Of a stretch of DNA of 56,310 nucleotides, positions 9,439 to 24,128 are shown piece after piece. The notes under the pieces are model-generated. The model was not told the DNA's origin. It was given only the letters and a program-made list of their open reading frames with translations, and did no database searches. The position numbers and the translations under genes were made by a program. This stretch comes from a virus, in IMG/VR virus record IMGVR_UViG_3300044617_001003, positions 1-56,310 of that record; one strand, given 5' to 3'. How positions within the stretch are numbered: the first letter of the stretch is position 1; each line of letters starts with the position of its first letter.

Positions 9439-9758
9439 TGCCCGGCCTCCTTGCAAATAGCCTTGTGTCCCTCGATCGCCTGCTCAACGCTTGAATATCT
9501 CTCGCAGATGTCGCACCCCGGAAACGTCATCGTCTCCCAGAGCAGCGGCGGCCCGCCGTCGTAGGCGTGGTTCAGCCCCAGAAAGACGGTCGAGACCCTG
9601 ATGCCGTTCTCCAGAACGTCGCTGGCGATGCTGAACCCGCAGCCTGTTTTGCTTGCGTACCAACTGGACGACTCCGGCATGGCGGCGTGCCACTCGAAGT
9701 ATTCGAGGACTCCGCACGGGCGTGTCGAGCCGCTCTCGTCGACTGTGTACCAGTTCAT
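9435..9758 (-). CDS. Conserved phage protein of unknown function
   Basis: A 107-residue protein. The block VSTVFLGLNHAYDGGPPLLWETM followed by RYSSVEQAIEGHKAIC (parts shown) is a pattern I know from many phage hypothetical proteins with no assigned role. It contains a Cys pair (CDIC). Coupled to both neighbours by ATGA overlaps. Here it directly follows the pseudopilin gene. Confidence 0.65.
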   Translation of the reverse strand: MNWYTVDESGSTRPCGVLEYFEWHAAMPESSSWYASKTGCGFSIASDVLENGIRVSTVFLGLNHAYDGGPPLLWETMTFPGCDICERYSSVEQAIEGHKAICKEAGQ

Positions 9759-10042
9759 TGCGCGGCCTCTGCTGGCTTTTGGCATGGGCAGTCGGGATGG
9801 TGCATCCCCCACTTGTCGCCAACGACGAACCAGTGGCCGCTGTGCTTCACGGTGCAGAGCGTCCACGACTCCGGCGGCTCGCTGTCCTCGGCGGCCGACG
9901 GCACCGTCATGTGGTCGGCGTTCTTGCGGGCGGCCAGGATCGCCGGCACGAGCAGGCCGACCAGCGTGGCGAGGATCGCCAGGACGGTGAGAGCCTCGAC
10001 GAGCGTGAAGCCGCGCCGGCCTGCGTTGTATCGCTGCGTCAT
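9755..10042 (-). CDS. Pseudopilin-like protein with type IV prepilin N-terminus
   Basis: A 95-residue protein. After ten basic residues comes RRGFTLVEALTVLAILATL: prepilin-peptidase cleavage after Gly11, then Phe12 and Glu16 at the +5 position, followed by a 20-residue hydrophobic helix. This is the full N-terminal signal of type IV pilins and type II secretion pseudopilins. The rest is only about 60 residues, with SGHWFVVGDKWGMHHPDC and CPC. The host's prepilin peptidase would process it. It could enter or block the host pilus or secretion system. Such N-termini are abundant in Planctomycetes. Confidence 0.8.
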   Translation of the reverse strand: MTQRYNAGRRGFTLVEALTVLAILATLVGLLVPAILAARKNADHMTVPSAAEDSEPPESWTLCTVKHSGHWFVVGDKWGMHHPDCPCQKPAEAAQ

Positions 10043-10366: not shown

Positions 10367-10469
10367 GGTAACGCCGTGCCTCGCGTCTCGCGGCCGTGCG
10401 GTGAAGATGCGGCGGGGTGTTATGCGGCACGGGGGGCGGCTATCGAGAACCGCATACTCACTGGTTCTG
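10367..10469 (-). repeat. Degenerate attC-like region downstream of the last cassette
   Basis: The region begins at 10469 on the minus strand with GCAGAAC, three bases after the stop of the upstream gene. This is the exact complement of the GTTCTGC at the far side of that gene. Further on are GCATAAC (10420-10426) and GTTACCG (10367-10373). A 7-bp stem, CCGTGCC with GGCACGG, and a short hairpin AGAACC/GGTTCT are present. The boundaries cannot be assigned as cleanly as for the three sites at 10748-11293; it may be two merged or decayed sites. Confidence 0.35.
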
Positions 10470-10470
10470 C

Positions 10471-10809
10471 CTACCCGTTCTCTGCCCGTGAAACAATCTC
10501 GCGAGCCACTTCGATCAGTTTCCACACCGCATCGTCGTAACCCTCGTCAGTCGCTCGGATTATCCGCTTGAGCATCGACAGCAAATCCGGTGAGGCGGCG
10601 AGTAGTCTGGCGTTGGCAAGATTCTCTGCGTTCTGGCAGCCAGGAAGCACAGCGAGGCACAAATACTTGCCAACGCCGTCGGGGGCAGTGGCGACGGCAA
10701 ACGACTCGCTTATCGTTGCGATCATCCACGGTGCTGGCGTGTGCGATGCAGAACCAGCGGATGCAGGAGGCATCGCTGCCGAGTCCTGCTGTGTAGTCGA
10801 ATCACTCAT
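10471..10809 (-). CDS. Conserved phage protein (HTPAPW...NARLLAASPDLL family)
   Basis: A 112-residue protein. SHTPAPW near residue 25, NARLLAASPDLLSML near 67-81 and a helical end mark a widely distributed phage protein family without known function. AGGAGC precedes the ATG at 10809. The whole start region, about 30 codons, lies inside the attC-like repeat at 10748-10838: the ribosome site is in one arm and the ATG at the edge of the loop. Its stop is three bases before another GCAGAAC box, so the gene occupies one cassette-like unit. Confidence 0.7.
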   Translation of the reverse strand: MSDSTTQQDSAAMPPASAGSASHTPAPWMIATISESFAVATAPDGVGKYLCLAVLPGCQNAENLANARLLAASPDLLSMLKRIIRATDEGYDDAVWKLIEVAREIVSRAENG

Positions 10810-10838
10810 GCGATGCTCCTGATCCTGCGTGTTATGCC
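10748..10838. repeat. attC-like site 1
   Basis: Plus-strand reading: GCAGAAC, CAGCGGATG, then CAGGAG-G-CATCGC, a 33-base loop, GCGATGCTCCTG, ATCCTGCGT and GTTATGCC. The 12-bp inner stem (10764-10776 with 10810-10821) is perfect except for one bulged G at 10770. The outer GGAT/ATCC pair and the AAC...GTT ends follow the integron attC plan (RYYYAAC ... GTTRRRY, with a one-sided extra base). The start codon of the phage gene ending at 10471 lies in the loop. Confidence 0.6.
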
Positions 10839-10996
10839 TTCAAGTCAGCGCGAGTCATTCCGTCGTAGAAGTTCCACATCGCGTAAGGAAACAGTGCAAA
10901 CGGAATCCACCATTTTTCCGTGAGAACGAGGAGCGTGAATGTAAACGCAAATGTCACCGCAATGTCGATCAGCCGCCTTTTTGTTCTCTCGCTCAC
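10832..10996 (-). CDS. 54-residue membrane protein in an attC-like cassette
   Basis: A GTG-start gene with GGAGG seven bases upstream, too short for ordinary gene finders. The protein begins MSERTKRRLIDIAVTF, continues FTFTLLVLTEKWWIPFALFP and ends AMWNFYDGMTRADLKA. Two short membrane segments are plausible (residues about 10-25 and 28-42). Its TAA stop is part of the GCATAAC box of site 1, and its GTG follows site 2 by 27 bases, so it fills one cassette-like unit. Function unknown. Confidence 0.65.
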   Translation of the reverse strand: MSERTKRRLIDIAVTFAFTFTLLVLTEKWWIPFALFPYAMWNFYDGMTRADLKA

Positions 10997-11023
10997 GGCA
11001 AATCCTCCGTTTCAATGATGCTT

Positions 11024-11081
11024 GGCATAACCAGCGGATGAAAGCGGACGGCAGAGCCGCCGCTTATCCTGCGTGTTCTCA
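11024..11081. repeat. attC-like site 2
   Basis: Plus-strand reading: GGCATAAC, CAGCGGATGA, AAGCGG-A-CGGC, loop AGA, GCCGCCGCTT, ATCCTGCGT, GTTCTCA. The ten-bp stem (11042-11052 with 11056-11065) has one bulged A at 11048. The flanking words CAGCGGATG and ATCCTGCGT are the same as in site 1. The end boxes match those of the neighbouring sites in the way expected for integron cassettes: GGCATAAC is complementary to GTTATGCC of site 1, and GTTCTCA equals that of site 3. Confidence 0.65.
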
Positions 11082-11234
11082 ATCAAAACAATGCAGGCGA
11101 ACGAACGCCTCCGCAAGAGCCAATGCGGCCCATTTCCTGAACTGCACAATCACTCGCCCGTCAATAACGACAGTCCACCCGGAACGCCGGTCGCATCCGT
11201 AGTCCCTGTCGTAGTGGAGGGCGAATGATTTCAT
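11079..11234 (-). CDS. 51-residue cassette protein
   Basis: The frame begins MKSFALHYDRDYGCDRRS, continues GWTVVIDGRVIVQFRKWAA and ends LHCFD. It is compact, with a strand-turn-strand centre and a helical end. A GTG at 11255 in frame would add seven residues; neither start has a clear ribosome site. The TGA stop forms the first bases of the TGAGAAC box of site 2, and the start follows site 3 directly. Real coding is supported by this exact fit and by sensible protein composition. Confidence 0.55.
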   Translation of the reverse strand: MKSFALHYDRDYGCDRRSGWTVVIDGRVIVQFRKWAALALAEAFVRLHCFD

Positions 11235-11245
11235 ATCTGATTCGT

Positions 11246-11293
11246 TGAGAACCACGCGATGCTGCGGACGAGCCGCAGATCGCAGCGTTCTCA
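11246..11293. repeat. attC-like site 3
   Basis: Plus-strand reading: TGAGAAC, CAC, GCGAT-G-CTGCGG, loop ACGAG, CCGCAGATCGC, AGC, GTTCTCA. The 11-bp stem has one bulged G at 11261, on the same side as the bulges of sites 1 and 2, and the terminal 7-mers are perfect complements. The TGA stop of the gene upstream (11291-11293) is part of the end box. Confidence 0.65.
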
Positions 11294-11710
11294 GCCTAAC
11301 CGCTCAATCACGCCGCGAAGCGTAGCCGCGACCCTCGCACAGTCCTCGTCATCGTCGTTGTCCGCATACGACTCCGCAGCACACGCAATCGCCTCCCGCT
11401 CCTCGTCGGTGAGCGTGGGCGAGCGGTAGAGCGGGACGACATCGGCCATGCCGACCACAGCACCTTCGGCGTCTTGTTGGCTGTACGACAGCCACATCGG
11501 CTGGCCGTTCTTGCCAACCGCTGCCCACGCCACCGGCTCCCGTGCATTGCCAGTGACCTCACCGTGTGCCGCCTCAAGCCGCAGCCTTGCGATCTCGGCA
11601 TCCCCTCGCAGGCGAGTGATCTCGTCTGCCGCCTCGTCAAACAACTCGCCGAGCCTCGCAAGGTGCAGGCCGCGCCAGCCGCGAAGTCGCGCCACAATGT
11701 CGTCACTCAT
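11291..11710 (-). CDS. Phage protein of the REPVAW / SPTLTDEEREAI type
   Basis: A 139-residue protein. A helical N-terminus (FDEAADEITRLRGDAEIARL) is followed by EPVAWAAVGKNGQPMW, VVPLYRSPTLTDEEREAI and an acidic end. This composition is typical of small Ea8.5- or Ead-like phage proteins of unknown function. The start at 11710 overlaps the gene upstream by 8 bases. The stop is embedded in attC-like site 3. Confidence 0.65.
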   Translation of the reverse strand: MSDDIVARLRGWRGLHLARLGELFDEAADEITRLRGDAEIARLRLEAAHGEVTGNAREPVAWAAVGKNGQPMWLSYSQQDAEGAVVGMADVVPLYRSPTLTDEEREAIACAAESYADNDDDEDCARVAATLRGVIERLG

Positions 11711-11975
11711 GCGAGCAGCATCCGTCGCAGCCGTGGATATTCTTGTGCCCCATGCCAACGCGATCCAAGTACGCCGCATCGTCTGGGTCTGGATGCCCTA
11801 CGCCGTGCTGGCAGATTCTCTCCATTTTCCCGGCGTCGTCTCGCCAGCGCATCGGCCACGACCTCATATGATGCTCCGAAGGGTTATGAATGCAGCAGAA
11901 CTCGCCAGCGCATTTCGCAGCGTCGTGAGTGACGAGGCTTTTCACTCTATTCCCCCGCATCAGCGGCCGCGTCAA
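11703..11975 (-). CDS. Conserved His/Cys-rich phage protein
   Basis: A 90-residue protein with VTHDAAKCAGEFCCIHNPSE, HHMRSW, ICQHGVGHPDPDD and HGCDGCCSHE. The many paired Cys and His suggest one or more metal sites. I recognise the sequence as a widespread actinobacterial and phage hypothetical family, without a known function. The start may be 11975 or 11960 (internal ATG); the later start reduces the overlap with the upstream gene. Confidence 0.65.
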   Translation of the reverse strand: MTRPLMRGNRVKSLVTHDAAKCAGEFCCIHNPSEHHMRSWPMRWRDDAGKMERICQHGVGHPDPDDAAYLDRVGMGHKNIHGCDGCCSHE

Positions 11976-12601: not shown

Positions 12602-12993
12602 TGGTCTCGACTGTCTTTCTCGAAAAGAGTTGGGAACAGCCCGGCCGACTTCGCGACCATGAGCATTCGCGGGTGAAACACCGCGACAGACCCGAGTTCC
12701 GCGACTCCGGCGGCCTTCAGGCCAGCGGCGGCGAAGGTCGCGACGCCACGGCCACGAAAACCGCCGTGAACAAAGGCTTCGAGCGTGTCCCAGTAGCCGG
12801 CCCGCTCCTCTTGCCAAGGCTCCGAGCGAACCCAGCCGACCATCCGGCCGCCGCTGAACACCAGGGCGATATGGCCACGGTAGACGCCTTCGCGGAGCGA
12901 CTTCTGAAAGTCGCTGCCTTCTTTGGTCAACGCTTCGACTGCAGCGAGTTCCTGCCGAGAGCAGTCATCAAGCGGTTTGACTGTGCATTCCAC
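12586..12993 (-). CDS. GNAT family acetyltransferase
   Basis: A 135-residue protein. The acetyl-CoA pyrophosphate loop is visible as GFRGRGVATFAAAG, preceded by a strand with ALVFSGGRMVGWVRSE and followed by FHPRMLMVAKSAGLFPTLFE. Length is normal for a minimal GNAT fold. The substrate cannot be predicted; phage GNATs may modify host proteins, nucleotides or antitoxins. Overlaps the DNA methyltransferase gene upstream by 26 bases. Confidence 0.8.
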   Translation of the reverse strand: MECTVKPLDDCSRQELAAVEALTKEGSDFQKSLREGVYRGHIALVFSGGRMVGWVRSEPWQEERAGYWDTLEAFVHGGFRGRGVATFAAAGLKAAGVAELGSVAVFHPRMLMVAKSAGLFPTLFEKDSRDQWKRA

Positions 12994-13717
12994 GAGAAGC
13001 CTCCATGATTCTCTGGGCCGCGATCAGCCCGTACTCGGGATTGAGTTCAATTCCCGTTGCGTCCCTGTCCATTTGGACTGCTACTGCACAAACCGTGCCA
13101 GATCCCGCAAACGGATCGAGAACAGAGTCGCCAGGATTGCTCGACACGCCGACGATCCGGCGGACGAGTTCCTCTGGAAGTTGCGTCGGCACGCCCTTGA
13201 TTCGCTCGCGAAACGTGCCGCAGACCCGGCTCACCTGCCAGACATCGCCCATGATTTTTTTGCCGTCGGACGCAGCCCGCCGGTCGCCGTATTTTGCGTA
13301 CCTCGCTGACGGCACGAGGACCGCGTCGCGGTTGAAGGTGAACCGCCGGCTGTCCTTCGTCGCGTAGAAGATCGGCCTGGAGCATCGGCCGAACTTGCTG
13401 TGGCAGTAGACGCCGAACGTCTCGTGCCATGTAATCCTGTTTCGCATCGTCATGCCGGCGCGCCGGATGGCGATGTCGATGTCGGCGCCATGCTCCTGGC
13501 CGCTGATGACCCAGAGCGAGCCGTGCGGCTTGAGTACCCTGCAGCACAGGCCTACCCACTGCTCGCACCAGATGTCGTAGTCACCCCTCCTATCCGCCTT
13601 TGCGCCGGCCCCGTAGTCGATGCCGATGTTGTACGGAGGGTCCGCAATGACGAGGTCGACGCTCTCGCTGGGCATGGCCCTCATCGCGTCAGCGCAGTCG
13701 CCGATGATGATGCTCAT
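12968..13717 (-). CDS. DNA methyltransferase, DPPY type (N4-cytosine or N6-adenine)
   Basis: A 249-residue protein. The catalytic DPPY is at residues 26-29 (VIADPPYNIG), and the SAM-binding motif follows near residue 212 (DPFAGSGT), the beta-class order. The region between is about 180 residues and would contain target recognition. AAGGAG precedes the ATG at 13717. With the MT-A70 enzyme at 3565-4116, the phage carries two different base methyltransferases and no obvious partner restriction enzyme, so protection from host restriction is likely. Confidence 0.85.
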   Translation of the reverse strand: MSIIIGDCADAMRAMPSESVDLVIADPPYNIGIDYGAGAKADRRGDYDIWCEQWVGLCCRVLKPHGSLWVISGQEHGADIDIAIRRAGMTMRNRITWHETFGVYCHSKFGRCSRPIFYATKDSRRFTFNRDAVLVPSARYAKYGDRRAASDGKKIMGDVWQVSRVCGTFRERIKGVPTQLPEELVRRIVGVSSNPGDSVLDPFAGSGTVCAVAVQMDRDATGIELNPEYGLIAAQRIMEASRGMHSQTA

Positions 13718-13965: not shown

Positions 13966-13968
13966 CAG

Positions 13969-14057
13969 TGCCCCCGGCGGGAGTTGAACCCGCGTCTCGC
14001 CTGCAGCGCGTTTTATCCGTTGGCAGCGTGCGCACTCTGCGTCCAAACTACGGGGAA
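13969..14057 (-). tRNA. tRNA-like sequence, atypical or degenerate
   Basis: The 3' half is a perfect tRNA end: T-arm GCGGG-TTCAACT-CCCGC, then CGGGGGC and a discriminator A, with no encoded CCA. The 5' side offers TTCCCCG-TA, giving six of seven acceptor pairs (one of them U-G). The D-stem (GTTT/GAGT) is weak. A loop CTGCCAA would give anticodon GCC (Gly), but only about three of five stem pairs form, and the total of 89 bases is long. It may be a decayed tRNA, an unusual class II tRNA, or the tRNA-derived attachment site of the integrase. Confidence 0.4.
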
Positions 14058-23261: not shown

Positions 23262-24128
23262 ATGTTGCTGGAAGACTTCTTGAGGGACATCTACGTCCCT
23301 CTCAAGGGCATCTGTGCCCAGACCGAGTTGCTCTACAAGATGACGATTGCGGAGTTCGGCAAATCGTTGGGCAAAGACCCGGAACTTGCCGACCTCGAAG
23401 AACTCAAAGTCGCCAAGTTTCTGGCCAAGCGAGTCCGCGAGCGCAAGCCGGCCACGGCGGCCAAGGACCGCAGCCAAATCCGCGCTTTGTGGGAGTTGGC
23501 GGCCCGCAGGCGCATGGTCAACGAGTGGCCGACGATTTCTAGGATCCGGGTGCCAGAGCGCGTCCCGGAGGCGTGGCTGACGGGCGAGATGGAGTCGCTG
23601 CTCGTCTCGGCGTCCCTGGAGACTTCTAGGTACGTCGGCATTCCGGCGGCGCTCTGGTGGCGAGCCATCCTGCTGGTCTGCTACGACACCGGGGAGCGCA
23701 TCGGCTCTGTGGTGTCGGCTCGGTGGCGAGACGTTCGCGGCGGCAGCATTTTGTTCGTCGCCGAAAACAGGAAGGGGAAGCGTCGGGACATTCTTCGTGC
23801 CCTCAAGCCGGAGACGCTCGCCGCCCTGCAGGTGATCCGCTTTGACCGCGAACCCGGCGACCTCGTGTTCCCATGGCCCAGGTCTCGCGGCTACCTGTGG
23901 AGGCGGCTTGAAATCATTCTGAAGCGGGCCGGGCTGCCGCACGACCGGTCGTGCAAGTTCCACAAGATCAGGCGCACGACGGCCAGTTATTCGGCCGCTG
24001 CCGGCCTGTCGGCCCAGGAGATCCTCGATCACTCAGACCCGAAGGTCACTCGCCGCTACATCGACCCGAGGATCGTCACTCAGCCGACGGCGGCCGATGT
24101 CATTCCGCCGCTTCGGGAGCCGGCGTGA
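23262..24128 (+). CDS. int: Tyrosine recombinase (phage integrase)
   Basis: A 288-residue protein. N-terminal SAM-like core-binding domain (residues 1-90), then a catalytic domain with Arg146 (GERIGS), Lys171 or Lys173, His234-x-x-Arg237 (HKIRRT), His257 (LDHSDP) and the nucleophile Tyr266 (TRRYID). All six active-site positions are present, so it should be active. It inserts phage DNA into the host chromosome. The IntI-specific insertion of integron integrases is not evident. No attachment site could be identified next to it. Confidence 0.9.
   Translation: MLLEDFLRDIYVPLKGICAQTELLYKMTIAEFGKSLGKDPELADLEELKVAKFLAKRVRERKPATAAKDRSQIRALWELAARRRMVNEWPTISRIRVPERVPEAWLTGEMESLLVSASLETSRYVGIPAALWWRAILLVCYDTGERIGSVVSARWRDVRGGSILFVAENRKGKRRDILRALKPETLAALQVIRFDREPGDLVFPWPRSRGYLWRRLEIILKRAGLPHDRSCKFHKIRRTTASYSAAAGLSAQEILDHSDPKVTRRYIDPRIVTQPTAADVIPPLREPA

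Follow-up and report, generated by a model that had tools for sequence, protein, structure and literature searches.

Evidence for an integron-type gene cassette array on an HK97-fold, probably planctomycete phage

A phage with an HK97-fold capsid, probably infecting planctomycetes, is likely to carry an integron-type cassette array that would be served in trans by an integron integrase (IntI) of its host. The DNA analyzed is the whole IMG/VR record IMGVR_UViG_3300044617_001003, a stretch of 56,310 bases referred to below as the window. It is a genuine phage sequence and encodes an HK97 major capsid protein, a portal, a head protease, and a large terminase, i.e., the genes of a tailed phage. 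Region 10441 to 11294 holds one attI-like site, three cassettes, and three attC sites and is followed by a variable stretch that reaches as far as approximately 11597. Since it has three attC sites but lacks a neighbouring integron integrase, the locus falls under the definition of a CALIN (at least two attC sites lacking an integrase); it was not classed as a complete integron, as intI adjoining attI is absent from the window. The features are listed below with the scores of two covariance models, R1, trained on 49 viral sites, none of them from the window, and R2, a refined model for which the three window sites were among the training sequences.

10441 to 10466, plus strand: attI-like left boundary TATCGAGAACCGCATACTCACTGGTT; the first cassette begins at its G^TT (10464)
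10465 to 10831, plus strand: cassette 0, ending with attC A (box complementarity; limits placed by the G^TT rule)
10471 to 10809, minus strand: cassette 0 gene, 112 amino acids, phrog_1273-like (unknown function)
10747 to 10838, plus strand: attC A, long class (R1, 49.4 bits, E = 2.4e-14; R2, 58.2 bits)
10832 to 11075, plus strand: cassette 1, ending with attC B (GTTATGCC at 10831 exactly complements GGCATAAC at 11024)
10832 to 10996, minus strand: cassette 1 gene, 54 amino acids, GTG start, GGAGG at 11004 to 11008
11024 to 11082, plus strand: attC B, 58-nt class, common core (R1, 73.5 bits, E = 1.3e-22)
11076 to 11287, plus strand: cassette 2, ending with attC C (GTTCTCAA at 11075 exactly complements TTGAGAAC at 11245)
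11079 to 11234, minus strand: cassette 2 gene, 51 amino acids from ATG (58 amino acids from GTG at 11255)
11245 to 11294, plus strand: attC C, about 50-nt class (R1, 31.3 bits, E = 4.4e-8; R2, 46.6 bits)
11288 to 11597, unstranded: variable segment past the last attC, C-terminal part of a resident gene (11291 to 11779, minus strand)
23262 to 24128, plus strand: phage Xer-like tyrosine recombinase (PF00589, E = 9.8e-14)

An earlier note, made from the sequence alone, had described three inverted repeats at the positions of A, B, and C and read them as integron attC sites, and both the repeats and this identification were borne out. The covariance check it had proposed, run with our own models, gave scores far above background: R1 recovers the three sites, all on the plus strand, and hardly anything beyond them, with a pronounced strand contrast for attC B (only 20.9 bits on the minus strand), and R2 finds the same three sites and nothing further below E = 0.3. 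The proposed folding check agreed as well, with single-strand DNA folds of the hairpins reaching z = -2.0 to -4.6 versus shuffles. The bulged purine that had been noticed on the left arm is real in that extrahelical purines are present and that extrahelical bases are confined to one arm, consistent with the strand polarity of attC sites; attC B has GA following GGAT and an additional A further on. The window boxes GCAGAAC, GCATAAC, and TGAGAAC match the consensus RYYYAAC/GTTRRRY only partly, with AAC/GTT retained; known attCs likewise depart from this consensus. At gathering scores, no Rfam family matched the hairpins, and similar DNA was found neither in INPHARED phages nor in PLSDB plasmids.

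Sites of the same kind are widespread in viral contigs. IMG/VR was scanned for the words AACCAGCGGATG and ATCCTGCGTGTT at a spacing of 20 to 50 bases, a pattern that occurred in 52 contigs versus approximately 0.01 expected by chance (our own estimate) and in one contig among approximately 85,000 bacterial and archaeal species genomes. R2 identified 183 sites in 53 contigs, which lie on one strand per contig without exception and fall into three size classes; the window array has one attC of each. Altogether, 77 viral contigs were counted as array-bearing. In 135 sites, 97.1% of the pair cells are paired (83.9% in shuffles), and two-sided changes number 249, versus 67 in shuffles. Within the core triplets AAC...GTT, the AU/AU pairs are kept in 133 of 133 distinct sites and the CG pair in 132 of 133. 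The arrays often lie near contig or sequence-stretch ends (L006, L032, L036, L041, and others) and would be undercounted if repeated attCs break assembly.

Although the earlier reading of the locus is largely supported, it overlooked the attI-like left boundary at 10441 to 10466, the complementarity between start and end boxes, and the inverted direction of the genes. Within an integron cassette, the bases that follow the initial G^TT are complementary to those preceding the terminal AAC. Of 52 sites, 46 are preceded by a complement of their own box, compared with 5.6% when the boxes of other sites were used as a control, and correct chaining is seen for 122 of 131 pairs of neighbouring sites. 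In the window, besides the two exact matches listed above, the end box of cassette 0, GCAGAAC (10748 to 10754), is complementary to GTTCTGC at 10464 in 7 of 7 bases. Such chained complementarity is not predicted by terminators or other hairpins and speaks for cassettes. Since it is symmetric, it cannot alone decide polarity; an attC polarity in the direction of the genes was considered and rejected in view of the scores per strand, the arm that bears the extrahelical bases, the polarity of the attI-like site, and the fact that genes in homologous host arrays run forward.

In many arrays, the first cassette begins at one conserved site. When TATNNNNNNCCGCATAMWYACTGGTT was used as the search pattern for this boundary, it was found in 44 viral contigs versus approximately 0.6 expected (our own estimate), and 25 of 34 new contigs with the pattern have an R2 attC in the available stretch, several others ending too early to tell. 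Across the boundary-bearing contigs, the sequence to the left of G^TT is conserved, whereas that to the right is variable. Judged from this pattern, the conserved left site would act as an attI-like primary insertion site. Three candidates for clean empty sites (L099, L107, and L117) were discarded, as they retain a cassette-like body after the attI-like site. Among 294 planctomycete genomes, the exact phage site was not found and a single-mismatch match occurred once; given this near-absence, the attI-like site looks phage-specific.

The genes of these arrays run against their attC sites. The earlier note had placed one or two very small genes between the sites; genes are indeed present, but there is one per cassette, and all are on the minus strand. 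Among 147 distinct cassettes, the longest frame is opposite to attC in 124, and in most cassettes the reverse-frame stop codon lies no more than 15 nt from the cassette start. Differences between homologous cassettes are distributed over the reverse-frame codon positions as 57/29/139 (the pairs being partly dependent), and those between cassette 2 and its copy in the sister phage L115 as 6/5/16 in the minus frame, i.e., mostly at position 3. In related bacterial arrays, the longest frames are 32 forward and 9 reverse. Since the block of phage genes in which they lie is also leftward, the inverted genes of captured cassettes would be transcribed by the phage.

Sites of the long class commonly show AGGAG or GGAG on the reverse strand, followed by ATG and an in-frame leader of mostly 13 to 20 codons, which often ends in ...ASAG and continues in frame with the gene. 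A start codon in the frame of the gene is present in 62 of 76 long-class phage attCs; in the related bacterial arrays, an in-frame attC ATG is found in 6 of 37 long sites. For attC A, the ATG of the cassette 0 gene is located in the loop and the Shine-Dalgarno sequence AGGAG (10816 to 10820, minus strand) in the right arm, and the site encodes the leader MSDSTTQQDSAAMPPASAG of this gene. With a long-class cassette, the ribosome-binding site and the start codon would accordingly arrive as part of attC. The leader residues displayed no clear third-position codon bias within subtypes, so the proposal is limited to the Shine-Dalgarno sequence, the ATG, and the frame; the peptide itself may not matter.

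The enzyme that recombines these cassettes probably comes from the host. No integron integrase was found in the 50 array-bearing records, and the Xer-like recombinase of the window has no match to TIGR02249, so that the earlier description of an integrase-less cassette array on a phage is right as regards an integron integrase. The planctomycete genome search suggested by that note yielded R2 matches in 48 of 294 planctomycete genomes, and the chromosomal attCs have the same core and extrahelical positions as the phage attCs. A planctomycete MAG contig, L054, which carries chromosomal genes (named by eye), encodes an integron integrase, intI (443.7 bits), beside phage-type attCs, and its array includes an inverted cassette homologous to a cassette of phage L029; 22 of 72 genomes of the MAG's family have R2 matches. 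The shared attC core and the position of intI beside phage-type attCs in L054 make a host integrase acting in trans the likeliest recombinase. The hosts of these phages are probably planctomycetes, to judge from two MAGs and the attC similarity.

The array may thus be pictured as a series of cassettes, each closed by an attC of the planctomycete type, behind an attI-like site specific to phages. The chromosomal integron integrase of the host would recombine folded attC bottom strands in the course of infection or lysogeny, and cassettes would move among circles, phage arrays, and host arrays. If the host integrase recombines the cassettes, the phage would require the sites alone. Host IntI may act at the phage attI-like site, but counting against it, no such site was found adjoining a host intI in the 294 genomes, and the attI region of L054 differs from it.

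Three observations touch on the host and on integrase distribution. A 95-amino-acid open reading frame of the window (9755 to 10042, minus strand) has a prepilin-like N terminus (GFTLVEALTVLAILATLVGLLVPAILAARKN) that resembles planctomycete DUF1559-type proteins (by eye), consistent with a planctomycete host. In the bacterial array L159 (G382:C23), positions 132 to 730, ordinary forward cassettes have as neighbours two inverted ones of the phage style with short attCs. The viral contig L165 (IMGVR_UViG_3300025000_000207) encodes a distant integron-integrase relative (43% identity), the only IntI relative found in viral contigs, and no R2 attCs were found alongside it.

It is unlikely that the phage's Xer-like tyrosine recombinase is itself the cassette integrase, with the left site as its cognate attI, which would constitute a phage-dedicated integron class. 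A tyrosine recombinase is encoded in 25 of the 50 array records; it ends approximately 80 bp before the attI-like site in L010 and lies less than 1 kb from the array in L050 and L024. Also compatible with this explanation are the occurrence of the attI-like site in phages and its absence from the host genomes searched, as well as the higher and more uniform scores of phage attCs compared to host attCs. In most records, however, the enzyme is located many kilobases from the array (approximately 12 kb in the window), and it lacks, in the alignment, the insertion of IntI1 and looks like an ordinary lysogeny integrase; the attC core equals that of host integrons and phage-type attCs occur beside a true intI in L054. 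Doubtful to a similar degree is the combination of a non-IntI phage recombinase and a phage-specific attI with attCs that double as recombination site and translation start module. Were there a phage-dedicated class, swapped genes would be expressed at once inside a phage operon.

Comparison of closely related phages argues for continued exchange at these sites. The sister phage L115 is 98.95% identical to the window over 7,987 bp on the left, up to window position 10010, and 98.96% identical over 4,244 bp on the right, where similarity resumes at 11598; beside the attI-like site, identity is 92% over 424 bp. The array of L115 nevertheless differs from that of the window, and the sole common cassette (cassette 2) is only 86.7% identical. 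Segment 11288 to 11597 is without similarity to the corresponding place in L115. In other phage pairs, the left flanks are 90 to 99% identical and the first cassettes unrelated, the change of array starting at the GTT of the attI-like site. Cassettes also recur with their own right-hand attC in different neighbourhoods (L017|1 and L033|1; L009|4 and L042|3). The contrast between flanks and arrays indicates gene exchange, as far as can be deduced from comparing sequences, and contradicts the refuting case named in the earlier note, hairpins kept without gene exchange. One pair, L033|7 and L048|3, combines a 99% identical body with different attCs at both sides and is not accounted for by simple cassette capture. 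At the right edge of the array, the resident gene (window 11291 to 11779, minus strand; L115 9721 to 10152, minus strand) keeps its N terminus, while the C-terminal part is wholly different.

These data also bear on the view that the cassettes are inert relics of a past capture out of a host integron and owe their changes to homologous recombination between phages. The lack of an integron integrase in the records, a decayed attC at the right-hand end in L115, and some bodies exchanged with neither attC would fit, but the near-invariance of AAC/GTT and stem pairing in 135 sites, together with replacement that starts at the attI-like GTT between phages with 99% identical flanks, points to ongoing site-specific activity and renders this view very improbable. 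Short GC-rich hairpins between genes, without an Rfam match, might also bring to mind ordinary hairpins with a regulatory or terminator role, or else mobile REP-like repeats, in either case with no exchange of genes. This reading is already contradicted and extremely unlikely, as neither chained box complementarity and one-sided extrahelical bases (unexpected for terminators or REPs) nor a fixed boundary and cassette turnover would be anticipated.

CALINs in phages and phage attCs that are active with IntI1 are already known. Qi et al. 2023 (PMC9892861) reported integrons or parts thereof in 21 phages, including attC clusters without integrase, and showed phage attCs to be recombined by IntI1 in E. 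coli; their two best examples have the typical gene direction, and planctomycetes are unmentioned. Those CALINs resemble the present arrays in being integrase-less attC clusters and in having DNA methyltransferases among their cassettes, whereas the latter share a single attC family and a single attI-like site across many diverse phages, and their genes are inverted with start signals inside attC. The CALIN of prophage M16-3 (PMC9892861) is likewise phage-borne and starts at an attI, which belongs to the type found in its Shewanella host, in contrast to the separate sequence common to phages found here. The sedentary chromosomal integrons of planctomycetes share the attC core GATGCAGCGGACGGC..GCCGCCGCTGATC and the extrahelical positions with the phage arrays. 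They differ in that their genes are mostly forward and start near the cassette start, and several adjoin intI; a search of them for the attI-like site of the phages did not find it. Within the literature searched, preprints and subscription journals excepted, an array family extending across a phage group with its own attI-like site looks new, as do genes opposed to attC and a start signal inside attC.

A group of environmental phages thus appears to swap accessory genes fast and in a modular fashion via integron cassettes, and near-identical phages can bear different ones. Phage variation is usually ascribed to homologous or illegitimate recombination. With the same cassette kind present in host integrons, a cassette pool shared by phage and bacterium becomes directly testable. 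An attC that supplies ribosome-binding site and start codon to an inverted gene would be a new way of expressing captured cassettes.

As to the cargo, 19 of 119 cassette proteins match DUF551, a few give hits to cytosine or adenine DNA methyltransferases or to HTH or HNH domains, and most are without a named domain. The cassettes probably deliver small phage proteins, most commonly of the DUF551 type and including some DNA methyltransferases, that adjust host interaction. In the window, the cassette 1 gene product is predicted by eye to be a small membrane protein, family searches giving no match. The cassette 0 gene contains a 21-nt inverted repeat (GTTGGCAAG/CTTGCCAAC, 10609 to 10677) with 81% complementarity and a 27-nt loop. 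A DNA methyltransferase gene (12968 to 13717, minus strand) lies close to the array and outside it, and a tRNA-Gly (gcc) gene of 90 nt is predicted at 13968 to 14057 on the minus strand.
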